Of a DNA stretch of 64,000 bases, positions 10,017 through 62,453 are shown in pieces. This DNA is from Bacteroidia bacterium (GTDB taxonomy: Bacteria; Bacteroidota; Bacteroidia; J057), in assembly GCA_030430205.1 (NCBI GenBank), contig JAUIGE010000013.1:62001-126000 (forward strand), given 5' to 3'. The notes below the pieces were generated by a model. It was given only the letters and a program-made list of their open reading frames with translations. It searched no databases and was not told where the DNA came from. Every line of letters begins with the position of its first letter. The stretch's first letter is position 1. Made by a program: the position numbers and the translations under genes.

Positions 10017-11144
10017 ATGCTCCGTTTTCTCCTGCCCCTTTTTGCCTGTCTGCTTTTTTCCCTTTCCGCTTTTGCTCAGCAAGCACCGCCTGAGATGCTG
10101 GATTTGCTTTCAAAATACAAGCAAATAACTTCCGGCAAAATCGTTTTTACCCAAACGACCAGCAGCAGTTTTGTAACCGATTCTTCTTCAAAAAGAGTCG
10201 AATTGTGCTTTCGAAAAAATGAAAGAAAAACAAAAAGCTATAAAGGCTATGATGTTTATTTCCACATAGTTGGGAAAGGCTATCAGAATAGCAGTTTATT
10301 ATGTGGAGATTCCATTTACTATTACTCCGACTCCATTTTATATACCAAATCACATATCAGTTCCCAGGATAAAGAAGATATAAAAGACCAGGTAAGAGAA
10401 TTGCCTGTCATGGAAAGTCTGCTTTTTTTTGCCACGATGTCAGGAGACAAGCTTTCTCTAAAGGATGAAACGAAGGATTATTGGATCATGAAAGGCAAAG
10501 AGTATCAGTTGTGTATTCGGAAGGAAGACAGCCTGATAACACGAATCGAATTCGATTACCATGACAAAATCGGCGATTTTTACAAGCGGATCGATATAAT
10601 CGAGCAGGAATATGGTCTGGTTTTTCCTCAAAAAATCTTTCCTTTTAATCCTGATTCCCTGAGCAATAACCTGACAAGGTACAAGCGTGATGAAAACAGA
10701 CAAAGAGCTGATTCATTGATTGGGCAAAAAGCCCCCAACTTCACCTTGCCCAATCTGGACGGCGATAGCATCAGCCTTTCTGACTTTCATGGAAAATACG
10801 TTTTGCTGGATTTTTGGTACATCGGCTGTGGCCCTTGCGTATTTGCGCTGCCTGAAATCCAAAAATTGTCCGAGGAACTCGATCCCGAAAAGGTGAAGAT
10901 CATCGGAATAGAAGTGTATCACATGGACCCAGAAAAGGTAAGGAAATTTATGGCGGAAAAAGGAGCTTTTTATGAAACCCTGCTGGCCAAAAAACAAGAG
11001 GAAATTGCCTCTTCGTTTTGCGTGGAAAGCTATCCCACTTTTTTCATCATTAATCCTGATGGTGTGATTGAACAGCTCCACCTGGGATATTCCCCGGGAA
11101 GAATGAAAAAGCTCACAAAAGAGTTGAAAAAGCTCACAGAATAA
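10017..11144 (+). CDS. Secreted TlpA/ResA-like thioredoxin-fold protein
   Basis: This is a 375-residue protein. I chose the ATG at 10017 over an in-frame upstream codon at 9924 because it starts a clean signal peptide (MLRFLLPLFACLLFSLSAFA, then QQ). The C-terminal third is a redoxin/AhpC-TSA domain: APNFTLPNLDGDSISLSDF, then FWYIGCGPC with the redox pair C271/C274, and a cis-proline region VESYPTFFIINPDG. The N-terminal 230 residues resemble outer-membrane-lipoprotein-type beta sheet but match no family I can name. It probably acts as a periplasmic thiol-disulphide oxidoreductase. The usual TlpA WCxxC is here GCGPC, so the tryptophan before the first cysteine is missing. Confidence 0.85.
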   Translation: MLRFLLPLFACLLFSLSAFAQQAPPEMLDLLSKYKQITSGKIVFTQTTSSSFVTDSSSKRVELCFRKNERKTKSYKGYDVYFHIVGKGYQNSSLLCGDSIYYYSDSILYTKSHISSQDKEDIKDQVRELPVMESLLFFATMSGDKLSLKDETKDYWIMKGKEYQLCIRKEDSLITRIEFDYHDKIGDFYKRIDIIEQEYGLVFPQKIFPFNPDSLSNNLTRYKRDENRQRADSLIGQKAPNFTLPNLDGDSISLSDFHGKYVLLDFWYIGCGPCVFALPEIQKLSEELDPEKVKIIGIEVYHMDPEKVRKFMAEKGAFYETLLAKKQEEIASSFCVESYPTFFIINPDGVIEQLHLGYSPGRMKKLTKELKKLTE

Positions 11145-12354: not shown

Positions 12355-13740
12355 ATGACAAACATAAAATTTCTTTTTCCCCTCCTCATTGGATTTTTGC
12401 TTTTATCTGCCTGTTCCAAAGAAAAAAGTGTGAGCCTCGAAGGCTCTCTTGCCAACTGTACCGATGACAGCCTGCGGGTGTATACCCTGGTCGGCAGCGA
12501 TCTGGTGCAGGTCTCGGCTGGCCCACTGAATGGCGGCAGTTTTTCTTTTGACGCCAAACTCCCTTCTGATGGCTTCTATTGGATAGGCGTCAGCCAAAGG
12601 GACATTCGCTCCGCTGTTTTGGTGGCAGGCGAAAAAGTAAAGCTGGACGGCCAATGTGGTGCCTTGCAGCAGGCAGAAGTGCAATCTGTGAGCAATGACC
12701 TCTACGCCAGGCTGTCCCAGCAAATGCAGCTCGATCAGCAACGCTATGACGGTATGTACCGCCAAATGATGACCACTGGCTATGTGGATGAGAATATGTC
12801 AGGACAAAGCCAGCAGCTTTATGGTAAGATGAAGGGCGTTATAGACTCCCTGCAAAAAGCGGATTCTCCGATAGGACATGCGCTGGCACTCAATATCAGC
12901 AGTTCGCCTTTCGATCCTGCGAATTCACTTTACAGCAGCCCTTTGGAGCATTATGTTGCTGAGTATTTGCCGCTTGCACAATTGAAAAATCCCATTTATG
13001 CGCATATTCCCATGCTTGGTGAGCATGCGGGTCAGTTTACCCTGCTGCTCTCACAGGCATTTCCTGAAGATCAAAGTAAGTTTGAAACTTACCTGGATAA
13101 ATTCTTACAGAGAATTCCCGGGAATACAGTCACTCACCGCAATGTGACTGCGCGAGTCATCGGCATGCTGGAGCAGGCACGCTCTGCATCTTATGCAAAA
13201 TATGCCCAACCCTATATCGCTGCTTATCCTGCTGACCGCAACAGCCAGCGCATGCAGCAGGTGATCCCTGCCATCACCCAATACATCAGGCAAAAGGCTG
13301 CCGCCGATGCCCTTTTTGCCGAAGGCAATACGCCTCCTGACATCACTTTGCCTTCCCCCAAAGGGAAGGAAATCAGCTTGAGTGATCTCAAAGGAAAAAT
13401 AGTCATGATTGACTTTTGGGCCAGCTGGTGCGGCCCCTGCCGCCGCGAAAATCCCCATGTGAAGAAGCTCTATGCCCAATACAAAAGCAAAGGCTTTGAA
13501 ATATTTGGCGTAAGCCTCGATAATGACCGCGGCAGATGGCTGCAGGCCATCGATGAGGATGGCCTCGAATGGGTGCACGTGAGCGACCTCAAAAAGTGGC
13601 AATCTGTGGCCGCACAGGCATATCAGGTAAGCTCCATTCCGCAGACTTTTCTGCTGGATAGAGAAGGCCGTATCATCGGCCGGGGCCTCAGAGGGGCCTC
13701 TTTAGAGCAGAAATTGAGAGAGGTTTTTGAGGAGAGTTAG
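12355..13740 (+). CDS. Lipoprotein DUF4369/TlpA-type thiol-disulphide oxidoreductase
   Basis: This 461-residue protein starts at the ATG at 12355, which gives a lipoprotein signal (FPLLIGFLLLSAC, lipobox LSAC); a codon at 12322 would only add a non-signal extension. Residues about 20-120 look like DUF4369 (GSLANCTDDSLRVY..., beta-rich). The middle is helical. The C-terminal TlpA domain carries APDITL-like PPDITLPSPKGKEISLSDLKGK, then FWASWCGPC with C359/C362 and the cis-proline SSIPQTFLLD. It is predicted to be membrane-anchored and to reduce or shuffle disulphides in the periplasm. The stop codon TAG (13738-13740) lies inside a word-ladder repeat. Confidence 0.92.
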   Translation: MTNIKFLFPLLIGFLLLSACSKEKSVSLEGSLANCTDDSLRVYTLVGSDLVQVSAGPLNGGSFSFDAKLPSDGFYWIGVSQRDIRSAVLVAGEKVKLDGQCGALQQAEVQSVSNDLYARLSQQMQLDQQRYDGMYRQMMTTGYVDENMSGQSQQLYGKMKGVIDSLQKADSPIGHALALNISSSPFDPANSLYSSPLEHYVAEYLPLAQLKNPIYAHIPMLGEHAGQFTLLLSQAFPEDQSKFETYLDKFLQRIPGNTVTHRNVTARVIGMLEQARSASYAKYAQPYIAAYPADRNSQRMQQVIPAITQYIRQKAAADALFAEGNTPPDITLPSPKGKEISLSDLKGKIVMIDFWASWCGPCRRENPHVKKLYAQYKSKGFEIFGVSLDNDRGRWLQAIDEDGLEWVHVSDLKKWQSVAAQAYQVSSIPQTFLLDREGRIIGRGLRGASLEQKLREVFEES

Positions 13741-13826
13741 TGGAGAGTAGAGAGGCGAGAGTAGAGAGGCGAGACGGAATGCGAAACCCGAAACCCGAAA
13801 CCCGAAACTCAAAACCCAAAACAAAA
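13731..13826. repeat. Word-ladder repeat: GAGAGTAG/GAGGCGAGA words then CCCGAAA heptamers
   Basis: The first half repeats GAGAGTAGAGAGGCGA-type words twice. The second half repeats the 7-base word ACCCGAA/ACCCAAA about five times. The array contains the stop codon of the preceding gene and ends 4 bases before the response-regulator ATG. The same words recur at 47061-47128, 54335-54357, 38015-38143 and 61840-61877. Confidence 0.8.
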
Positions 13827-13829
13827 AAC

Positions 13830-22042: not shown

Positions 22043-22957
22043 ATGGACTACCAACACATCCTTAAGGAAATCGAGCAAGAGCTCGCCAGCCAATCCTTCA
22101 GCGGCGAAATCGCCACCTACATCCCCGAGCTCGCCAAAGTTGATCCCAACAAATTTGGGGTGCATCTCTGCTCTTTGGAGGGAAATGACTATTTCCTGGG
22201 AGATAATGAGGAAAAGTTTTCCATTCAATCTATTTCCAAAGTGCTGGGACTGGCGCTGGCCTACCAACTGGAGGGGGAAAAAATCTTCGAAAGGGTCGAT
22301 GTGGAGCCATCTGGCAATCCTTTCAACTCTTTGCTACAATTGGAATATGAAAATGGTATCCCCCGAAATCCGCTGATCAATTCGGGTGCTCTGGTTGTTT
22401 GTGACATCCTGATTAGCTTATTGGAGGATCCCAGAGCGGATTTTCTGGCTTTTATTCGCAAAATTTCAGGCTTTTCCACCATTTCCTTTGATGAAAAAGT
22501 AGCCGAATCCGAAAGGCAATCCGGTTTCCGAAATGCTGCCCTGGCCAATCTGATGAAATCATTTGGCAATATTCACAATGATATAGACGAAGTCCTGGAC
22601 TTCTATTTCCATACCTGTTCGCTCAGCATGTCCTGTAAGGAATTGGCGAATACCTTCCTGCTCTTTGCCAACCATGGCAAACTGCTGCACACAGGCGAGC
22701 GCCTGCTGACGTCCAGCAAGACCAAGCGCATCAATGCGATCATGCAGACCTGCGGCTTCTACGATGAAGCGGGCGAATTCAGCTTCCGGGTAGGCCTGCC
22801 CGGCAAGAGCGGTGTCGGCGGCGGCATCGCCGCCGTGCATCCCGGAGAATACAGCATCGCTGTATGGAGCCCGCGCCTCAATCCCAAAGGCAATTCTGCC
22901 AAAGGCATGGCAGTTCTTGAACTGCTTACGACTAAGACTGGGCGGTCGATTTTTTAG
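22043..22957 (+). CDS. glsA: Glutaminase A
   Basis: This 304-residue protein has the usual length for the serine-dependent beta-lactamase-fold glutaminases that convert glutamine to glutamate and ammonia. Seen: the SxxK active site S63-I-S-K66 in FSIQSISKV, PSGNPFNS, NPLINSGALV and the C-terminal GKSGVGGGI. I use the ATG at 22043 (MDYQHIL); an upstream GTG would add a non-conserved extension. The TAG stop (22955-22957) runs directly into a 38-base tandem repeat. Confidence 0.95.
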   Translation: MDYQHILKEIEQELASQSFSGEIATYIPELAKVDPNKFGVHLCSLEGNDYFLGDNEEKFSIQSISKVLGLALAYQLEGEKIFERVDVEPSGNPFNSLLQLEYENGIPRNPLINSGALVVCDILISLLEDPRADFLAFIRKISGFSTISFDEKVAESERQSGFRNAALANLMKSFGNIHNDIDEVLDFYFHTCSLSMSCKELANTFLLFANHGKLLHTGERLLTSSKTKRINAIMQTCGFYDEAGEFSFRVGLPGKSGVGGGIAAVHPGEYSIAVWSPRLNPKGNSAKGMAVLELLTTKTGRSIF

Positions 22958-23108
22958 GGAGAAATACGAATGACGAACAAGGATTGACGAGCACGGGAGA
23001 AATACGAATGACGAACAAGGATTGACGAGCACGGGAGAAATACGAATGACGAACAAGGATTGACGAGCACGGGAGAAATACGAATGACGAACAAGGATTG
23101 ACGAGCAC
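22957..23108. repeat. Four exact 38-base tandem repeats
   Basis: The unit starts GGGAGAAATACGAATGACGA and ends GACGAGCAC. Copies begin at 22957, 22995, 23033 and 23071 and are identical as read. The unit is not a multiple of three. There are no unique spacers, so it is not a CRISPR array. Confidence 0.95.
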
Positions 23109-23133
23109 GGAAGGGAAATCCTAATAATCCTCA

Positions 23134-36044: not shown

Positions 36045-38588
36045 TTATTTCTGCGAAATCCCGCTATTCTGAAGCTTTTCGTAAGCTTCCAGTCCGCAAT
36101 CGAGGAAGTTGCGGTACTCGCTTTCGTCAGGCGTATATCCTACCGGAGAGTTCAATAATACTTCGTCAGGGCTGATGATCGCATAATAAGGTTGGGAGTT
36201 ATTATTGAAAGTAAATGTCTGGAGGGTAGCCCATTTATCTCCTACTGTTCTTATGCGTTTCATTTGCCCAGTCTGTGGAATAATCACTTCGTGAGGATTT
36301 TCTAACTTTTCTCTATCATCCACATAAAGAGAAATCAGAACAAAATCATTGTTCAATCTTTTAAAGATTTCCTGCTCGACCCAGACATTCTCCTCCATTT
36401 TCCGGCAGTTTACACAAGCCCAGCCAGTAAAATCAAGCATAACGGGCTTGTTTACTTTTTTTGCATAGGCCATACCTTCTTCATAATCTTTAAAACAAGC
36501 CAAATCCAAAGGACAATTTCCTGTCTCACAGTAGCTGTAATAGGTCGGTGGTGGAAAACCACTAAGCAGTTTGAAAGTTTTGCCTGAGCCACAGTAGAGA
36601 CCGGGTATGAGGTAAACCGCAAAAGCGAGGGACGCCAAAGCAGGTATTACCCTCGTTGCTGTTAATTTAATTTTGGGAGGATCATGAGGGAATTTGATAA
36701 ATCCTAAGAGATAAGCAGACAAGCCTACGGCTGTAGCAACCCATAATCCAAAAAATAATTCCCTTTTCAACAGACCTAAATGCAATACCAAATCCGCATT
36801 TGAAAAGAATTTAATGGCTAAGCCTACTTCAATGAATCCTAAAACAACTTTGACGGTATTCATCCAGCCTCCTGATTGAGGCAGGCTATTGAGCCAACTG
36901 GGGAAAGCTGCAAAGAGCGCAAAGGGCAAGCCCAAAGCGACCCCAAATCCCAGCATACCTGCGGTGAGGTTCATGGCTCCACTGGCGCCCTGGATAGATT
37001 CGCCCAGCAGCAATCCTAAGATAGGGCCTGTACATGAAAAGGAAACCAGTGTCAGGGTGATAGCCATGAAAAAGATGCCTAATAGGCCTCCAGAGCTGGA
37101 TTTTGAACTGATTTTATTGACAAGTCCGCTGGGAAGGGTAAGGTCGAAATAGCCAAAAAAGGATATGGCGAAAAAGATAAAGATGAAGAAAAAGAAAAAA
37201 TTAAGAATTGGATCTGTAGCCATGGTATTCAGGATATTTCTATCCAGATTTTCCATGATGTGAAAAGGCACACTGATCAGGGTATAGAGTCCAACGATGG
37301 ACAAACCATAAATAGAGGCATTTTTGATTCCCGCTTTTTTGTTGGTTCCGCCTTTAGTGAAAAAACTTACCGTTAAAGGAATCATCGGAAAAACACAGGG
37401 AGTAATGAGTGCAATCATTCCCCCGAGCAAGCCTTTTACAAAATTGCCCCAAAAACCTTTTGCACTTTCCAATTTCTCCACATCCTTGCAATCCGACACC
37501 GGATTTTTTAAGTCAATCCCTTCCCTTAAATAGGCCTCCTCTCCGTCCAGGGCCACGTCTTCGCCTCCTCCTACTTTCCCCGCAATCTCAAAACCAAAGT
37601 CCACATAAGCCGGAGGCAGGCAGCGCTCCTCATCGCAAGTCATAAAGGTGAGTTCACCGGCGATGCTCTCGGGCGCACCCGGGAAGGATACTTTCTGGCT
37701 GAAAACGGCTTTTTCATTAAAAAAAGCCAGCTCCATATTGAATACTTTGTCTTGTTTTTTGACAACATTGTCACTCTCAGTGACATCGCCTACCAGGGTA
37801 TAATTTCCTTCTTTGAAGGTAAAAGAAGTGGGGATAGGCCCGCCTTCCTTGATATGCTGAGAATAGATCTTCCAGCCCTGGTCTATATTGGCGGTAAAAT
37901 TGAGCTGATAGGTCTGCTCATCTATTTTGTCAAAACCAAAAATCCACTTTACCGGCTCGAAAATGCCGCTTTCAGCAGCCTGTGGCGCATCATCCGTGGC
38001 AGCTGCCTGCTCAGTTCCCGCATCCCCCTTCTCGCCTCCCGCATCTCGCATCTCGCCTCCCGCATCTCCCTTCTCGCTTCCAGCATCCCCCTTCTCGCCT
38101 CCCTGCTCTCTGCTCTCTGTTCTCTCTTCTCTCTTCTCCGCATTCAGCGTGAAAGAAAAATCTTCCGCCGTAGGCGGGGTGCAGCGCTCATCATCACAAG
38201 CCATATACTCGATAAAGCCTGTTATTTTGGCACCGTCCTTTAGGCGCTTTACTTTTTGAATAAAAGTGGCTTTTTTGCTGAAATACAGCAGCTCCATATT
38301 GAATATGGCGCTGTTTTCCGTTTCGGGTTTGTCCACTTCCGTGGCTTTGCCTATGACTTCATAGCCATCAATATTTTCAAAATTGAAACTGGTTGGGATA
38401 GGCCCACCCTCGGCAATGAATTGCGAATACAGATGCCAGCCCGGATCTATGGTCGCTTTGAAAACGAGTTCATGTTCTTCCGCCGATATTTGCCGGACCT
38501 CCATCGTCCAGTCTACCGGATCAAGCAGTTGTGCCTGACTAAAAAGGGAAAAAATGATAAGGGGGAGAAACAATAATACCTTCTTCAT
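36045..38588 (-). CDS. DsbD-like thiol:disulphide interchange protein with duplicated N-terminal domain
   Basis: This 847-residue protein has a signal peptide at 1-19. Two homologous DsbD-alpha-like domains follow at about 20-145 and 210-330; each has GW..YSQ.I.EGGPIPTSF and ends in a cysteine pair (ACDDERCTPP, TCDEERCLPP). A CcdA-type membrane domain with eight helices spans about 385-660, with the redox pair in PCVFPMIPL and CTGPILG. The C-terminal thioredoxin domain has WACVNC (C725/C728). It should carry electrons from cytoplasmic thioredoxin across the inner membrane to periplasmic thiol proteins such as the TlpA-type proteins at 10017 and 12355. The linker at about residues 149-205 is low-complexity (GGEKGDAG, SEKGDAGGEMRDAG) and is encoded by a word-ladder repeat. 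Confidence 0.9.
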   Translation of the reverse strand: MKKVLLFLPLIIFSLFSQAQLLDPVDWTMEVRQISAEEHELVFKATIDPGWHLYSQFIAEGGPIPTSFNFENIDGYEVIGKATEVDKPETENSAIFNMELLYFSKKATFIQKVKRLKDGAKITGFIEYMACDDERCTPPTAEDFSFTLNAEKREERTESREQGGEKGDAGSEKGDAGGEMRDAGGEKGDAGTEQAAATDDAPQAAESGIFEPVKWIFGFDKIDEQTYQLNFTANIDQGWKIYSQHIKEGGPIPTSFTFKEGNYTLVGDVTESDNVVKKQDKVFNMELAFFNEKAVFSQKVSFPGAPESIAGELTFMTCDEERCLPPAYVDFGFEIAGKVGGGEDVALDGEEAYLREGIDLKNPVSDCKDVEKLESAKGFWGNFVKGLLGGMIALITPCVFPMIPLTVSFFTKGGTNKKAGIKNASIYGLSIVGLYTLISVPFHIMENLDRNILNTMATDPILNFFFFFIFIFFAISFFGYFDLTLPSGLVNKISSKSSSGGLLGIFFMAITLTLVSFSCTGPILGLLLGESIQGASGAMNLTAGMLGFGVALGLPFALFAAFPSWLNSLPQSGGWMNTVKVVLGFIEVGLAIKFFSNADLVLHLGLLKRELFFGLWVATAVGLSAYLLGFIKFPHDPPKIKLTATRVIPALASLAFAVYLIPGLYCGSGKTFKLLSGFPPPTYYSYCETGNCPLDLACFKDYEEGMAYAKKVNKPVMLDFTGWACVNCRKMEENVWVEQEIFKRLNNDFVLISLYVDDREKLENPHEVIIPQTGQMKRIRTVGDKWATLQTFTFNNNSQPYYAIISPDEVLLNSPVGYTPDESEYRNFLDCGLEAYEKLQNSGISQK
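38015..38143 (-). repeat. Word-ladder repeat inside the dsbD-like coding region
   Basis: On the minus strand the words are GAGAAGAGA/GAGAGCA, then GGGAGGCGAGAAGGGGGATGC repeated with changes about four times (all in frame). They match the GAGGCGAGA...GGAATGCG words of the intergenic array at 13731-13826 and encode the Glu/Lys/Gly/Asp linker between two structured domains. Confidence 0.8.
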
Positions 38589-42089: not shown

Positions 42090-42178
42090 ATGCAGTATCC
42101 AGTTGGCAGTATGTAGTTGGCAGTATGTAGTTGGCAGTATGCAGTTGGAAAGGTCACAGCTAACTGCCCACTGGTTTA
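42090..42178. repeat. Heptamer word-ladder repeat (TTGGCAG / TATGTAG)
   Basis: Heptamers TTGGCAG, TATGTAG, TTGGCAG, TATGTAG, TTGGCAG, TATGCAG run in register, and a short inverted stretch (ACTGCCCACTGG) follows near the prohibitin stop codon. The array fills the gap between the EamA and prohibitin genes. Confidence 0.8.
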
Positions 42179-47060: not shown

Positions 47061-47128
47061 GTTTCGGGTTTTGGGTTTCGGGTTCCGAGTACACAAAACC
47101 CGAAACCCAAAACCCGAAACCCCAAAAC
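47061..47128. repeat. CCCGAAA/CCCAAAA heptamer array forming a perfect 24-base hairpin
   Basis: The arms at 47061-47084 and 47097-47120 are exact reverse complements (24 bases) around a 12-base loop, and each arm is itself built from GGGTTTC/GGGTTTT words. The array begins 6 bases after the gcvT stop and probably acts as its terminator. The same words occur at 13786-13826. Confidence 0.9.
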
Positions 47129-47150
47129 TAACTTCTTAACTCTTCCGACT

Positions 47151-48103: not shown

Positions 48104-48577
48104 ATGTCCTACATCTCCTCTCTTCGCGCCAAAATCGGCCACCAAAAATTCATCCACCCCGCAGCCCGCATCCTGATCGAAAACGATCAGGGAGAATTTC
48201 TCTTCATCGAAAGAGCTGACAATGGCTATCTCGGCATTCCCGCCGGAGGTCTGGAAGAAAATGAGACCATCGAGCAGTGCATCAGGCGCGAAGTAAAAGA
48301 AGAAACAAATCTTGAAATCATTTCTCTGGAATTGATCGGCATTTCATCCCATCCTCAGCGAGAGTATGTTAGCTATCTCAATGGTGATCAGATTCAGTAT
48401 TTTACCCTTGAATTTTATGCAAATCACTTTCAGGGAAAACTGCAGGCGGATCAGCAGGAAGTGAAAAAGGCGCTTTTTTTGGCAGAATCAAAGGCGCAGC
48501 TTTTGCCGGAAAATGAAAGGCATGCTTTCAGGAGCCTGGAGTATTTTCGCAAAAATAAGAGACCGTTGTTAGAGTAG
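48104..48577 (+). CDS. Nudix hydrolase
   Basis: This 157-residue protein has a complete Nudix box from Gly48: GGLEENE with Glu54, then REVKEET at 62-68 (G-x5-E-x7-REVKEExG-type, with Asn-Leu after). It hydrolyses a nucleoside diphosphate linked to another moiety; the substrate is not predictable. The TAG stop lies at the start of a heptamer repeat. Confidence 0.93.
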
Positions 48578-48690
48578 GTAGTAGGCAGTTGGCAGTTGGC
48601 AGTGGGCAGTGGGCAGTTGGCAGTGGGCAGTGGATAATGGACAGTGGATAATGGATAATGGACAATGACAGTGGACAGTAAAAACCCGAA
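48574..48690. repeat. Heptamer word-ladder repeat (GGCAGTT / GGCAGTG / GGATAAT)
   Basis: About fourteen heptamers of the CAGTTGG / CAGTGGG / CAGTGGA / TAATGGA type run in register from the Nudix stop codon (48575-48577). An ACCCGAAA word follows at the end. It sits between the Nudix gene and the next gene. Confidence 0.85.
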
Positions 48691-54255: not shown

Positions 54256-56109
54256 ATGGCACAGAAGAAGAAGAAAGTAAGCAGGAGGCAGTCGGCGGCT
54301 GGCAGTCGGAAGGCTGCAAAAAAAGTAAGCCGAAACTCCCAACCCGAAACCCCAAACTATCCCTGGTGGCAGCTCGCTCTTATCGCGTTGCTCACCTTCA
54401 TCGCCTTTTTCCCAGCCCTCGACAACGGCTTTGTCAATTGGGATGACCCCAAATACATCGTCAACAATGAGGTTGTGCACAGCTTCAGTGGCGAAAACCT
54501 GGCTACTTCTTTCACCGAAGAGGTTTCGGATAACTACCATCCGCTCACCAATATTTCCCAGACCATCGACTGGGTGCTGGGTGGGGGAGATGCAGGCATC
54601 TTTCACATCACAAGCCTGATTTTGCACATCATCAATGCGCTGCTGGTTTTCTTTTTGGTCATGATGCTGACAGGCAAACAATGGGTCTGCATGGGCGTTT
54701 CGCTCCTTTTTAGCCTGCACCCCGTGCATGTGGAGTCTGTGGCCTGGGCCACCGAACGAAAAGACGTGCTCTACGGCTTGTTTTTTCTGCTTTCGCTGAT
54801 TTCCTACCTGAAGTATCTGCGGCAGGAAAAATCCCAATTCTACGTATACGCCCTGATTTTTGGCCTTTTGTCCATGTTTTCCAAACCCGCAGCTATTCCT
54901 TTGCCGATGGTGCTGCTCCTGATAGATTATTTTGAAGGAAGGAAGTTGATGGACCAAAAAGTGATGCTGGAAAAGCTTCCTTTCTTTGCCATGGCCATCA
55001 TTTTTGGCCTGATCACGGTTTCATTTCAGGCTGACAATGCTGTCAGGACCTTTGCCGAAGTGGGCTTTGGGGAGCGAATTGTATTCGCCTCCTACAGCTA
55101 TGTGATGTATATCGTCAAATTCTTTTTTCCCTATCCGCTCTACGCATTTTATCCCTATCCCAATCTCTCGGATATTCCCACCTGGTACTATGGCATGCCT
55201 ATCGTAGCGCTGGCTATCACGGGAGGGGTGATCTGGTTGGGGAGAAAAAATAAATTTTTGTGGTTTGGGCTGCTTTTTTTCCTGCTGGTGATCAGCATCA
55301 CCTTGCAATTATTTGCCGTAGGCGGTGCCCTCATGGCTGATCGCTATACCTATATCCCCTATATAGGGCTGGGGATCGCCCTCCTGATGGGCATAGATGC
55401 CTGGATCGCCAAGCGAAAAAATCTGCAAAAACCTTTGTTGGTGGGCGGAATTGCCGCTTTGGCGATCTTTGGCGCTTTGACCTGGCAACAGGCCGAGACC
55501 TGGCGCGATGGCGAAGCCCTCTGGACGAATCTGATTGAGCGTTCTCCTACGCCTGTGCGCATTGCCTACACCAATAGGGGCGATTTTTACAAAGGGGAAA
55601 AGCAATATGAAAAGGCAATCGCGGACTTTAACAAAGCCCTTGAGATTTCGCCCAATGAGCCCGGCACCCTGCGCTTGCGCGCCAAAGTCAATTTCGACCT
55701 CCAGCGCTACCAGCAATCGCTGGCAGATTATCGCCAGGTGGTGATCTCATCCCCCGAGGATGTAGAGGTATGGTCCAACATGGCCATCATCCAGGTGCTT
55801 ACGAAGCAATATGATGATGCCCTCAAATCCCTAGATCGCACCCTGCAAATTGATCCCAATTATGCACCTACCTACAAGACACAAGGTTATTTGAACAATG
55901 AATTGGGACGCCACCAGGCCTCCATACAGGCCTACCAGAAATTTCTGCAATTGCAGGGAGCAGATCCCGCGATCTATCATTCGATAGCGCTTTCCTACCA
56001 GCAACTCGGCAACCGCCAAAAGGCGCTTGAAGCCATCAACGAGGCGATTCGCCTCAATCCGAATGCAGAATTGTACCAGCAGCTGCGGCAGCAGATTAGT
56101 ATGCAGTAA
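54256..56109 (+). CDS. TMTC-like GT-C membrane protein with C-terminal TPRs (copy 2)
   Basis: This 617-residue protein is the paralogue of 52379: NWDDPKYIVNNEVVHSFSGE, SDNYHPLTNISQTIDWVLGG and HPVHVESVAWATERKDVLYG align throughout. I chose the ATG at 54256; the longer frame from 54019 is only the shadow of copy 1. An extra N-terminal 40 residues (SRRQSAAGSRKAAKKVSRNS) precede the first helix and are coded by word-ladder sequence. The C-terminal codons and TAA stop come from a 15-base repeat (SMQ then stop). Confidence 0.85.
   Translation: MAQKKKKVSRRQSAAGSRKAAKKVSRNSQPETPNYPWWQLALIALLTFIAFFPALDNGFVNWDDPKYIVNNEVVHSFSGENLATSFTEEVSDNYHPLTNISQTIDWVLGGGDAGIFHITSLILHIINALLVFFLVMMLTGKQWVCMGVSLLFSLHPVHVESVAWATERKDVLYGLFFLLSLISYLKYLRQEKSQFYVYALIFGLLSMFSKPAAIPLPMVLLLIDYFEGRKLMDQKVMLEKLPFFAMAIIFGLITVSFQADNAVRTFAEVGFGERIVFASYSYVMYIVKFFFPYPLYAFYPYPNLSDIPTWYYGMPIVALAITGGVIWLGRKNKFLWFGLLFFLLVISITLQLFAVGGALMADRYTYIPYIGLGIALLMGIDAWIAKRKNLQKPLLVGGIAALAIFGALTWQQAETWRDGEALWTNLIERSPTPVRIAYTNRGDFYKGEKQYEKAIADFNKALEISPNEPGTLRLRAKVNFDLQRYQQSLADYRQVVISSPEDVEVWSNMAIIQVLTKQYDDALKSLDRTLQIDPNYAPTYKTQGYLNNELGRHQASIQAYQKFLQLQGADPAIYHSIALSYQQLGNRQKALEAINEAIRLNPNAELYQQLRQQISMQ
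54286..54357 (+). repeat. Word-ladder repeat inside the copy 2 N-terminus
   Basis: This stretch carries GGCAGTC words followed by AACCCGAAACCCCAAAC, the same words as the intergenic arrays at 48574-48690 and 47095-47128. It is in frame and encodes the soluble tail before the first membrane helix. Confidence 0.7.
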
Positions 56110-56227
56110 TTTAGTAGGCAGTAATTTAGTAGGCAGTAATTTAGTAGGCAGTATGCAGGAAACCCACTGCCCACTGCCTACTGCCCACTGCCCACTGCCC
56201 ACTGCCCACTGCCTACTGCCCACTGCG
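56103..56227. repeat. 15-base triple repeat plus GGCAGTG heptamer array between convergent genes
   Basis: GCAGTAATTTAGTAG occurs three times in a row (56103-56147). A run of about nine ACTGCCC/ACTGCCT heptamers follows (56165-56226). The stop of copy 2 (56107-56109) is in the first unit, and the lnt stop (56213-56215, minus strand) is in the heptamer run, so both genes end in repeat sequence. Confidence 0.9.
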
Positions 56228-58033
56228 AACTAACCTCCGGGATTTCACCCAGAAAAACCCAACCAGCAAGAGACTCAACAAGCCACAAACCCAGCCCAAA
56301 TAATCTCCATGACGGACATAAAAAGTCCGTCCGCCATACACATTGCAGCGGCGGTCGTTGAAGGTTTCCGTCCAGTAGGGAGTGGGTTGGAGGATATTTC
56401 CCTGATTATCAGTAAAAAGGGAAATGCCGGTATTGGCGGAGCGAATGACTTCGCGCCGCGTTTCGATGGCGCGTAAAGTCGCGAAATGTGCGTGCTGGAT
56501 ATGACCAGACGAGCCTTTGCGCTCGTTGGTGCTGTTGTCAAAGTTCCACCAACCGTCGTTGGTGATGATGGAGAGCAGGCCGGGATTCTCGCTGATAAGC
56601 GGTCTGATATAGTTGCCGTATTCGCTCTCGTAGCAGACGAGAGAGGCGATCTCGACGCCTTGAGGCGTCACCAGCGGATGCATGCTGGGCGGTTTGCCAT
56701 AATTGCCAAAACTCCCTCCCAGATCCAGGTTGTAGTCTTTGAGGAAAGCCAGATACTCCAGATAGGGCATGCGCTCGACCATGGGCACCAGCTTTCCCTT
56801 TTGGAAAGTCTGTATGCTGTCGCCATTGCCCAGGAGGGCAGAGGCGTTGTAATACTCATAGTGGCCTATGCTGGGCGCATAGCGCGCCGATTTGGGAATG
56901 ACTTCCCGGGTAGAATCTATGATCCTGCCCTCTGTCAGCCCTGTCAGCAGGCTGAGGTCAGGATGCTCAAGCAGCACAGCCCAAATAGGCCTCAACAGCA
57001 TATCCGTCCGCAGGTTGTGGTTCCAGACGATCCTGGGAATAGCCGTTTCGGGCAATACCGCCAGATCTATGCTGTCCACGCCAGGCTGGCGCATAAGGCG
57101 CGCAAAAGTGAGAATCTGTTCCCTGGCCGTGCCGGAATATTTGTTATACGGGTCAATATTGGGCTGAATCAGCCGCACATTCAGGCTTCCTTTTTCCTGA
57201 AAAACATCCCGATCCGGATTCAGGATATAGGGCTTTACCACAAAAGGAAAAGCCAGCAGCAAGGCTATACCCGTCGCATAGGCATAGCGCCGGTATTTGC
57301 TCACCTGAGCCGCCCGGATCATCTGGTACACCAGCACATTGACCAGCAAGATATGCAGCGAAATGCCAAGCGTACCGGTGAATTCGGCATATTGTATCCA
57401 CCAGGGGTAGAACGTCTGGCTGTGTCCCAGGGTCATCCAGGACCAGGAAAGCTCCCAGCTGAAGTGTAACCACTCAAAAGTGATCCAGAAGGCAACGAAG
57501 CCCAGACTGAAAATAAAGGCCGTAGAGGCCCTCCTAAGGCGCGCAAAGAGGTAGACCGGAATGGTCATCAGGACCGGATTGATCAGGTTGGCGACCAGAC
57601 CCGCGGTGAGTGCGGCTATTTTTTCATCGGGTGACTCTACGCCCAGGGCCGTCAGCATGATCCAGTAGCAACCGCCTACATTCCAGATCAGGAATGTCAG
57701 GTAAGCGTAGCGAAATATCTGCGCGTAGCGCGAGATGGTAGCCCTTTTGTACCAAAATGCTTTTCCCTTAAACCGCCAGATAAACTGCAGCGTTAGCATT
57801 CGCCAGATATTGATGAAGAAGGCTTTGAAAAAGCCCCAAAGGCGGTCTTCATACACCCGATCAGGGGTATGGTCCATCAGCAACAACAGCGGCACAAAGG
57901 CGATGTATGCTAAAAAGGAAGTAGGAAAAGGGGGAAAGGACAATACAAGCATCAGGCCGGAGGCCAATACCATCAGATAGGGTCTGTTTCGAGCCAGCCG
58001 ATAAATCGACCATTTTTCTTTTTCCGGAGCCAT
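56213..58033 (-). CDS. lnt: Apolipoprotein N-acyltransferase
   Basis: This 606-residue inner-membrane enzyme adds the third acyl chain to lipoproteins. It has about seven N-terminal helices, then a nitrilase-fold domain ([15 protein letters not shown]). The catalytic triad is Glu329 (LPETAIP), Lys414 ([13 protein letters not shown]) and Cys467 (LVCYESEYG), and it has ITNDGWW and ANTGISLF. The length is above the usual 510-550, mostly N-terminal. The last three residues (Ser-Gly-Gln) and the stop are coded by the heptamer repeat. Confidence 0.95.
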
Positions 58034-61259: not shown

Positions 61260-62453
61260 TTAGACTATCCCCAAAGAATCAAATTCTTTGCCGAGGATCT
61301 TCTGCGAAGATACCCCCATCCAATTGTCCAGTACCTCCGCATAGACGGAGCGAAAATCCACGCTCCACGGCAAATCGCCATCATCGAGCTGTGCCAGGTC
61401 AGGCACAGCGTTGTAAATTCCCGCCTTGCGGAGACCTCCGCCTATCAGCAGCAGGTTATTGGCTTTGCCATGATCGGTGCCATTGCTGGCATTTTGTTGG
61501 ACCCGGCGGCCAAACTCCGAAAAAGTCAGAATCAGCGTATCCTCCATGCGACCGTTTCGCTCCAAATCACGGACAAGCGCAGCTACTCCCTGCGAATACG
61601 TCCCGAAAAGGCGCGCCTGCGTACCTTTTTGGTTGATATGGGTATCAAAACCCGAAAGCGAAGTGTAAAACACTTCCGTCTCAACCCCCGAACAAATCAG
61701 TTCGGAAATCATCTTCAGGCTCTTGCCGAAGGCATGGGGCGGGTAGATTTCCGTCGAACGGTATACCTTCGATGCCTCATAAATATAGTCCGTAGACTGG
61801 CTCGTCTGTACCAGGCTTTTATACAAAAAGTCCAGATTCCCATCCCGCATCCCGCCATCCCGCACCCCGCCTCCCACCAAAGCTTGCACATACGCATCCT
61901 GCGTAGCCCTATGCATCTGCAGCGGATTCCGCACGGCAAGGCCGTTTGCGTTCTGCCCTTTGAGCGCGAGGCTGAGCATATCAGCCATTTCGATGACCTT
62001 GTGCGGTGCCGCACAGCCTTCGCAACTGTTGTCCAGATAGCGGCCCAGCCAGCCTGTTTGCAGGTATTCGCTGGCATCGCTGGCCGTATGCCAGATATCC
62101 ATCGAGCGAAAGTGAGAACGGTTGGGATTGGGGTATCCGACCCCATTGATGAGGGCAAGCTGCCCCTGATCGTAAAGTGCCTGCAAGGGCTTCAGAGCGG
62201 GATTGAGGCCGATATCGTCGTTGAGGGGAAGTACTTCCTCCATCGCAAGCCGGGGCCGCAGTTTGTAGTAAATATCATTGCGATAGGGCACAAAGGCATT
62301 TAAGCCGTCACAACCGCCGGATAGCTGGATGATGATGAGCTTTTTGCCATCCGTATTCAGGCCGCCATGGCCCAAAGCCTGCAAAAACTTCGGCATGAAT
62401 AGAGAGCCGGAAGCCAAAGCTGATATTTTGAGAAAATCTCTTCGGGTACCCAT
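61260..62453 (-). CDS. DUF1501-family Tat-exported protein
   Basis: This 397-residue protein has a Tat signal (MGTRRDFLKISALASGS, with RRDFLK), then the DUF1501 landmarks LIIIQLSGGCDGLNAFVPY, GYPNPNRSHFRSMDIWHTA, GFDTHINQKGTQ and LTFSEFGRRV..N...GTDHGKANN. These have an alkaline-phosphatase/sulfatase-like fold but lack a proven activity. It is paired with the DUF1800 gene upstream, a very common pair in Bacteroidetes and Planctomycetes. A repeat-coded insertion (GGGVRDGGMRDG) lies at residues about 192-205. Confidence 0.92.
   Translation of the reverse strand: MGTRRDFLKISALASGSLFMPKFLQALGHGGLNTDGKKLIIIQLSGGCDGLNAFVPYRNDIYYKLRPRLAMEEVLPLNDDIGLNPALKPLQALYDQGQLALINGVGYPNPNRSHFRSMDIWHTASDASEYLQTGWLGRYLDNSCEGCAAPHKVIEMADMLSLALKGQNANGLAVRNPLQMHRATQDAYVQALVGGGVRDGGMRDGNLDFLYKSLVQTSQSTDYIYEASKVYRSTEIYPPHAFGKSLKMISELICSGVETEVFYTSLSGFDTHINQKGTQARLFGTYSQGVAALVRDLERNGRMEDTLILTFSEFGRRVQQNASNGTDHGKANNLLLIGGGLRKAGIYNAVPDLAQLDDGDLPWSVDFRSVYAEVLDNWMGVSSQKILGKEFDSLGIV
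61840..61877 (-). repeat. Word-ladder repeat inside the DUF1501 coding region
   Basis: On the minus strand the words are GGGAGGCGGGGTGCGGGATG and GCGGGATGCGGGATG, in frame. They match the GGGAGGCGAGA...GGGATGC words of 38015-38143 and encode a Gly/Arg/Asp loop. Confidence 0.65.

Follow-up and report, generated by a model that had tools for sequence, protein, structure and literature searches.

Is the repetitive linker of a DsbD-like protein a repeat of the protein, or a repeat of the DNA that happens to be translated? This question is raised by a gene in a 64,000-nucleotide (nt) stretch of a Bacteroidia bacterium genome (GenBank assembly GCA_030430205.1, contig JAUIGE010000013.1, positions 62,001 to 126,000), which we call the window and whose numbering we use for positions given without a locus name. 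The dsbD-like gene lies on the minus strand at 36045..38588, encodes 847 amino acids (aa) and was assigned from the list of open reading frames (ORFs) and from Pfam matches to DsbD_N (two stretches), DsbD_TM and Thioredoxin_7. We found that its linker is coded by a heptamer array, and that the repetition belongs to the DNA level.

The DsbD linker is coded by a heptamer array

The array occupies 38013..38138 on the minus strand, where 18 heptamers in one register make up 42 codons, residues 151-192 (EKREERTESREQGGEKGDAGSEKGDAGGEMRDAGGEKGDAGT); its description draws on a register listing, a recoding test, Tandem Repeats Finder (TRF) and an AlphaFold2 model. Read downwards from 38138, the first half consists of GAGAAGA (twice), GAGAACA, GAGAGCA (twice), GGGAGGC, GAGAAGG, GGGATGC and TGGAAGC, and the second half, which runs on to 38013, of GAGAAGG, GAGATGC, GGGAGGC, GAGATGC (twice), GGGAGGC, GAGAAGG, GGGATGC and GGGAACT. 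TRF reported a period of 21 at 38016-38103 and a period of 7 at 38028-38138. An initial annotation of this DNA had noticed repeat words in the linker at 38015-38143; tandem heptamers are indeed present, far beyond chance, at the corrected site of 38013-38138.

We generated 20,000 synonymous recodings of the linker peptide, drawing codons at the frequencies seen in long ORFs of a sample of the genome. At lag 7 the linker DNA had an identity of 0.70, compared with a mean of 0.38 and a maximum of 0.56 among the recodings; at lag 14 it had 0.68 (recoding maximum 0.56) and at lag 21 it had 0.71 (recoding maximum 0.70). The values observed at lags 7, 14, 21, 28 and 35 were attained by none of the 20,000 recodings. 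Because peptide repetition alone would lift lag 21, and not lags 7 and 14, the signal at the latter two points to the DNA. The 7-nt periodicity goes beyond what the peptide needs, which supports the earlier proposal that a DNA-level repeat of the intergenic kind codes the linker. The same annotation had all units kept in frame, which does not hold: the heptamers cycle through codon phases 0, 1 and 2, so that only their total, 126 nt or 42 codons, is in frame.

The host gene has the N-terminal DsbD_N, transmembrane and thioredoxin domains and the cysteine pairs of a DsbD. Its first DsbD_N domain (aa 29-146, 38151..38504, on the minus strand like the domains that follow; best Pfam PF11412 stretch) shows an ACDDERC cysteine pair in the translation, and a second DsbD_N-like domain is placed by predicted AlphaFold2 strands at aa 213-334 (37587..37952), with two Pfam DsbD_N stretches in the protein. 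The transmembrane domain (aa 384-595, 36804..37439; PF02683) and a C-terminal thioredoxin-like domain (aa 700-771, 36276..36491; PF13899) complete the protein, in which C318, C323, C398, C519, C725 and C728 are invariant in a ten-sequence alignment (A1). The AlphaFold2 model on a ten-sequence alignment, modest overall (mean pLDDT 66, pTM 0.37), contains two beta domains with strands within residues 25-148 and 213-334, and gives residues 152-210 a pLDDT under 50 and zero secondary structure. Residues 151-192 are predicted to form a hydrophilic, disordered linker between the two DsbD_N domains. Related DsbD proteins in named records belong to several orders of Bacteroidota, including Saprospiraceae and Lewinellaceae.

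Our orthologue screen covered 107 loci, from which 86 proteins passed a filter of a transmembrane-core pattern and shared 4-mers. A 4-residue motif of the linker occurred in two of these 86 (L005 and L009), both times elsewhere than in the linker. In four aligned orthologues, linker sequence and composition were unrelated to those of the array linker, and lag-7 identity was 0.24-0.36 in the 15 orthologous linkers measured (14 and that of L002), whereas the window's linker, cut at the boundaries used for L002, had 0.60. None of the orthologous linkers examined resembled the array linker; the situation that the annotation had named as a sign of protein-level selection, orthologues with the same peptide in other codons, was not what we observed. 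Gene fusion was rejected as an origin of the array, since two DsbD_N domains with a linker are present in the orthologues as well.

The annotation had also derived the linker from an intergenic array at 13731-13785, said to contain the same words. That stretch lacks GGGATGC on both strands and, by a script run on the plus strand, lacks GGGAGGCGAGA, the reverse complement of which was also not seen in its printed sequence. What it shares with the linker is the 9-mer GAGGCGAGA, present twice, and a best ungapped match of 22 of 26 nt. A BLAST search of the same genome with the DsbD linker gave at least 59 matches (40 of 173 candidate places scored), and 13731-13785 lay outside them. That this array was the source is not supported; it is a different member of one genome-wide class.

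Heptamer arrays in the genome and in other proteins

A lag scan of the window returned 6, 6, 4 and 3 tracts at lags 7, 14, 21 and 28, and 0 to 2 at every other lag from 4 to 30. In a 400-kb sample of the same genome, lags 7, 14 and 21 gave 32, 30 and 24 tracts and the other lags between 3 and 27 gave 0-3; after first-order Markov resampling of this sample, no tract appeared at any lag tested. We counted 102 heptamer arrays in 1,248,797 bases (60 stretches plus the window), about 82 per Mb, with GAAACCC, CAGTGGG/CAGTTGG, GAGAGGC/GAGAGCA/GAGAAGC and ATGGATA as common words. In a sister genome of the same genus (G001), 369 kb contained 20 arrays or, with another merging distance, 21, and different words were prominent, for example CCTAGAA and CCCTAAA. 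When a further coding array of our genome, that of LpxB, served as query, four of 198 genomes drawn from the class matched at 1e-6, its own genome included, which makes near matches to the LpxB array a rarity in other genomes.

Positions were assigned with a crude gene caller based on codon usage, by which 54 of the 102 arrays were intergenic, 38 were edge cases, 4 were terminal and 6 lay inside genes. Since 79.6% of the bases were called coding, arrays are depleted inside genes. Flanks were usable for 90 arrays. Of their 98 stop boundaries, 59 had the array no more than 12 nt away, where random placement within the gaps predicts 41.3; of 82 start boundaries, 17 did, with 18.1 predicted. Arrays were more frequent between convergent genes: such gaps held 24 of the 90 arrays, and 71 of the 555 gaps of at least 30 nt are convergent. 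The arrays of this genome share with heptameric simple sequence repeats (SSRs) their tandem 7-nt units, their dispersal over many loci, mostly outside genes, and their tendency to sit next to stop codons.

Ten proteins of this genome carry arrays, DsbD and nine others, to which one topoisomerase of the sister species is added. According to Pfam, the other hosts are an ABC-F ATPase, a 2123-aa fn3/Por_Secre_tail protein, a PP2C, a CAAX protease (at the C-terminus), LpxB, a bPH_2 protein, a glycosyltransferase of family 4 (GT4), GcpE/IspG and a PMT_2 protein. In-frame presence in unrelated conserved genes, as known from palindromic elements of Rickettsia, was found for these arrays. When 12 coding arrays of these 11 proteins were recoded synonymously, the observed value was attained by none of 5000 recodings in ten cases and by one of 5000 in each of the other two (the second LpxB array and the sister topoisomerase, TopA).

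Of the six arrays inside genes, L140:7655 and L197:14018 are unclear members of the class. By longest ORF, 11 of the 102 arrays lay inside an ORF, as did one of 20 in the sister genome, where plain longest ORFs were used (the codon-usage caller called 16% coding there). Seven of the 25 linker-BLAST loci with a scored array had it inside a called gene (L031, which is DsbD, L035, L037, L047, L053, which is the ABC-F of L140, L054 and L060), a fraction biased upward because the query is itself coding. A six-frame search of the genome with a made-up consensus peptide gave at least 21 places (150 of 318 candidates scored), four of them stop-free in open frames of more than 350 aa: DsbD, GT4, bPH_2 and LpxB. 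Three of the 11 arrays inside a longest ORF were rejected as coding: those of L155 and L192 lie upstream of the called gene and Pfam domain, and at L179 the called gene is on the opposite strand and falls short of the array.

In the six of the 11 proteins that we aligned with orthologues, the array lies in a variable linker or loop, which it fills or makes longer. The alignments comprised L002-L005 for DsbD, two of two orthologues each for TopA and bPH_2, L220-L223 and L225 for ABC-F (leaving out L224, L226, L227 and the weaker paralogues L228-L230), L235-L240 for IspG (L241 and L242 left out) and L244-L249 for LpxB (L250-L252 left out); orthologue lengths run from stop to stop, which makes total lengths rough. 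In LpxB, the array forms a long insert that follows VDFVGHPLLD and precedes IALLPGSR, at a site where relatives are short and variable, and it separates two parts that match residues 9-171 and 193-343 of the solved LpxB 5w8n. The IspG array follows the first GcpE stretch, and the aligned stretch is longer than in each of six relatives; the bPH_2 array comes right after a bPH_2 stretch (81-159), at a place longer than in two relatives, as is the array-bearing loop of the sister TopA. The array of ABC-F lies in the stretch before the C-terminal domain. Pfam matches place the GT4 array at 177-208, after the domain stretch 21-154; the PMT_2 array at 348-383, at the end of the stretch 268-349; the PP2C array at 69-93, before the domain 235-483; and the array of the 2123-aa protein at 1934-1945, before the sorting domain 2046-2120.

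All 12 recoding-tested coding arrays read the purine-richer strand (0.56-0.93 purine), which makes 12 of 13 counted coding arrays when L197:14018 is included as the exception. Left out of this count were L140:7655-7698 (not heptamer-like by eye), the gene-end cases L183:17834, L196:1787 (sense purine 0.47, slightly pyrimidine) and window position 11104, two pseudouridine-synthase arrays of L140 (sense purine 0.55 and 0.81), and L159:16584 of the sister genome (0.57). For six of nine coding arrays the other strand is free of stop trinucleotides in every frame, so stops alone do not explain its rarity, to which the hydrophobic, SLLSALC-type peptide that it would encode may contribute.

Origin of the coding arrays

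We consider it probable that the DsbD linker is a member of the genome-wide class of heptamer arrays that has settled in a coding region, the arrays being slippage-driven or selfish and tolerated in disordered linkers. At DsbD, the absence of the array from orthologous sequences suggests intergenic repeat to protein linker as the likeliest direction. Since 7 equals 1 modulo 3, three units (21 nt) pass through all codon phases; by arithmetic, a perfect array yields one and the same cyclic peptide of 7 residues whichever frame is read, and if its word lacks stop trinucleotides it is open in all three. This frame-neutrality means that an array can lie in a gene given a net length that is a multiple of three, stop-free words or out-of-frame stops, and a harmless peptide. 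In the GT4 array (L047), TAG-bearing words recur in such a way that the coding frame has 0 stop trinucleotides and the remaining frames have 3 and 2. Selection would leave arrays chiefly in variable, disordered linkers, loops and termini, and surviving coding arrays would mostly be purine-sense and encode E/K/R/S/G/A peptides. In DsbD, the array would have taken over the spacer between the N-terminal domains, where orthologues have unrelated sequence. We infer that selection causes the bias; arrays would have grown by slippage or by copying between loci, and the DsbD linker may be a purely flexible spacer. More tentatively, a genome-wide process could write a lineage-specific heptamer vocabulary into hundreds of sites of this lineage and, as a 7-nt unit reads the same in each frame, keep supplying the proteome with new disordered linkers, those of central enzymes included, with words spreading between coding and noncoding loci.

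Several results weigh against the settling of an intergenic-type array in DsbD and its tolerance there and elsewhere. The 10-mers of the linker occurred 269 times in the rest of the sampled genome, no excess over the recodings (mean 225, sd 46). The inter-domain linker of DsbD shows no length gain relative to orthologues, and the array of ABC-F brings no clear one, so replacement must be assumed in both. The array of the sister TopA sits in a loop inside the Topoisom_bac span (162-603) and not between domains. At L197:14018-14049, in a PMT-type glycosyltransferase, the pyrimidine strand is read (purine 0.16). Among noncoding arrays at stops, 41 are purine-sense, 15 pyrimidine-sense and 3 mixed, so that coding explains only part of the sense bias. 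The longest perfect run has a median of 19.5 nt in coding and 20 nt in noncoding arrays (p = 0.46; the 12 coding arrays of this comparison include two pseudouridine-synthase pieces and omit the second LpxB array and the sister TopA), and this equal purity gives no sign of selection against slippage. Finally, a comparison of array pairs with shuffles identified no donor array for the DsbD locus; the annotation's idea of an intergenic repeat turned into a linker keeps its direction, as the likeliest, and loses its donor. As a separate observation, L197:14018-14049 lies in a hydrophobic segment, FFVLRFSF.

Selection at the protein level for a repetitive flexible linker of the GGEKGDAG type, with the DNA repeat as a by-product of repeated codons, would accord with the linker's repeat of 7 aa, or 21 nt, and with the low-complexity linkers that are usual at this site in orthologues. 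As the sole cause it is refuted by the lag-7 and lag-14 identities, which exceed those of all 20,000 recodings; moreover, the peptide is not common to the orthologues examined and the same word class fills intergenic arrays genome-wide, and we regard this explanation as very improbable. Scarcely better placed is a phase-variable contingency locus, where a single heptamer added or lost would put the gene out of frame and silence DsbD. When one or two units were added or removed in silico, the first stop came at about residue 187-217, so that slips of this size would be null mutations, whereas a change of three units leaves the frame intact. In DsbD the array is degenerate, with perfect 7-nt periodicity over 19 nt at most, short of three units, and the same kind of array is found in LpxB and IspG, enzymes that are usually essential and whose OFF state would be lethal. 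The model for such a switch is neuO of E. coli K1, where a heptanucleotide array (AAGACTC) is read as protein and its unit number sets the frame (PMC13001214). The DsbD array is likewise translated with its unit number deciding the frame; unlike the 5' switching array of neuO, it is degenerate, lies at residues 151-192 of 847 and has counterparts in genes for which switching is unlikely.

Arrays might also spread between loci, coding sites included, by copying (gene conversion, template switching or an unknown mobile process), much as Rickettsia palindromic elements (RPEs) do, which we think possible though rather unlikely. The LpxB array matches the GT4 array at 93% over 89 nt and the PMT_2 array at 87% over 106 nt. 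When units were shuffled in 21-nt blocks, the shuffles reaching the observed similarity numbered, of 200, 2 and 2 for LpxB with two intergenic arrays, 3 for bPH_2 with C20:311347, 5 for GT4 with C30 and 1 for IspG with C2. However, these suggestive pairs are the best of many and uncorrected, other top pairs fell within the shuffles (up to 115 of 200; PMT_2 66 to 93), and the three best partners of DsbD were reached by 12, 49 and 79 of 200 shuffles with 21-nt blocks and by 1, 6 and 45 with single heptamers. Shared unit order is suggestive of copying for LpxB, GT4, bPH_2 and IspG, and is no sign of it for DsbD or PMT_2. The top order-sharing pair, L210/L041, was discarded because its members are one and the same locus. 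Least probable, to the point of being negligible, is an assembly or contamination artefact: repeats are prone to misassembly, but the reading frame runs unbroken through the array within a contig of 169 kb, the 7.24-Mb genome has a listed completeness of 100 and contamination of 0.21, and arrays are seen in several independent genes.

Known repeat systems and other repeats of the genome

The heptanucleotide repeats of Calothrix go by the name STRR. Repeats of Calothrix are mentioned in PMC4692102 together with heptameric SSRs that prefer stop codons on the sense strand, GGGAATC of Xanthomonas and GGGGATT of Nostoc; compared with these, the present genome holds many words, some of which code linkers inside conserved enzymes. 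According to PMC4679880, heptamers outnumber every other class of longer repeat in the majority of surveyed bacterial genomes; the paper describes TAACTGA repeats in Beggiatoaceae, Cyanobacteria and five Bacteroidetes, some in ORFs, mostly at protein ends or in hypothetical proteins. Ours are likewise heptamer direct repeats, some within ORFs, but unlike that single word they comprise stop-free words within LpxB, IspG, ABC-F and DsbD. The tandem repeats of Borgs also lie both between and within genes, where they commonly give disordered regions, but their in-ORF units are all described as divisible by three (PMC9879509), whereas our unit of 7 is not and occurs inside and outside genes. RPEs, about 150 bp long, enter unrelated genes in frame and also occur outside genes (reviewed in PMC10969869), as our arrays do; they are palindromic by name, in contrast to the DsbD array, which is 126 nt of heptamers in one direction and in this respect no RPE.

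The present case joins a heptamer repeat of the Xanthomonas/Nostoc type with the in-gene habit of the other systems. Among the matches listed, the open-licence literature gave no description of heptamer arrays as linkers of conserved enzymes. Repeats of a noncoding type that become protein are known from Rickettsia and Borgs; here the unit is not a multiple of three, and the hosts include LpxB, IspG, ABC-F and DsbD, at places where orthologues vary. Heptamer frame-neutrality offers a simple account of how units of this length can move from between genes into them, and the case makes both the origin of disordered linkers and the spread of heptamer repeats testable.

Beyond the DsbD array, TRF and the lag scan located several arrays in the window. 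Between two genes, on the plus strand at 13738..13829, GAGAGTA/GAGAGGC is followed by GAAACCC (also by word check). The others are CAGTATG/CAGTTGG at 42091..42151; two facing arrays, GTTTCGG then AAACCCG, at 47061..47129; CAGTGGG/CAGTTGG and similar words at 48572..48679, overlapping the stop end of a called gene; CCCACTG at 56161..56231; and, by TRF only, CATCCCG/CACCCCG at 61840..61875. Facing arrays of one word, such as GTTTCGG then CCGAAAC, occur at 47061-47129 of the window, L150:6833-6915 and L145:6549-6655; they are hairpin-capable and, judged from sequence, could possibly have a terminator-like role. TRF also found a 38-bp unit, GGGAGAAATACGAATGACGAACAAGGATTGACGAGCAC, repeated 4.1 times at 100% matches (22957-23110), which differs from the degenerate heptamer arrays, and, next to a heptamer array, 3.9 copies of a 15-bp unit, TTAGTAGGCAGTAAT (56096-56153), which looks like a heptamer pair plus one base.

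Elsewhere in the genome, a pseudouridine synthase ORF with an S4 domain (L140:18631-19599, minus strand) has an N-terminal extension that seemingly consists of GA and GAAACCC heptamers, with EARGEKRD and QNPKPET repeats in its peptide; its start codon is uncertain. In the sister genome, the topoisomerase array loci are L032 and L253, and a PMT_2 protein carries an array of that genome's own words (L159:16584-16629), the site of which aligns weakly by BLASTP (E 0.004, two-sequence database) just after the PMT_2 array of our genome.

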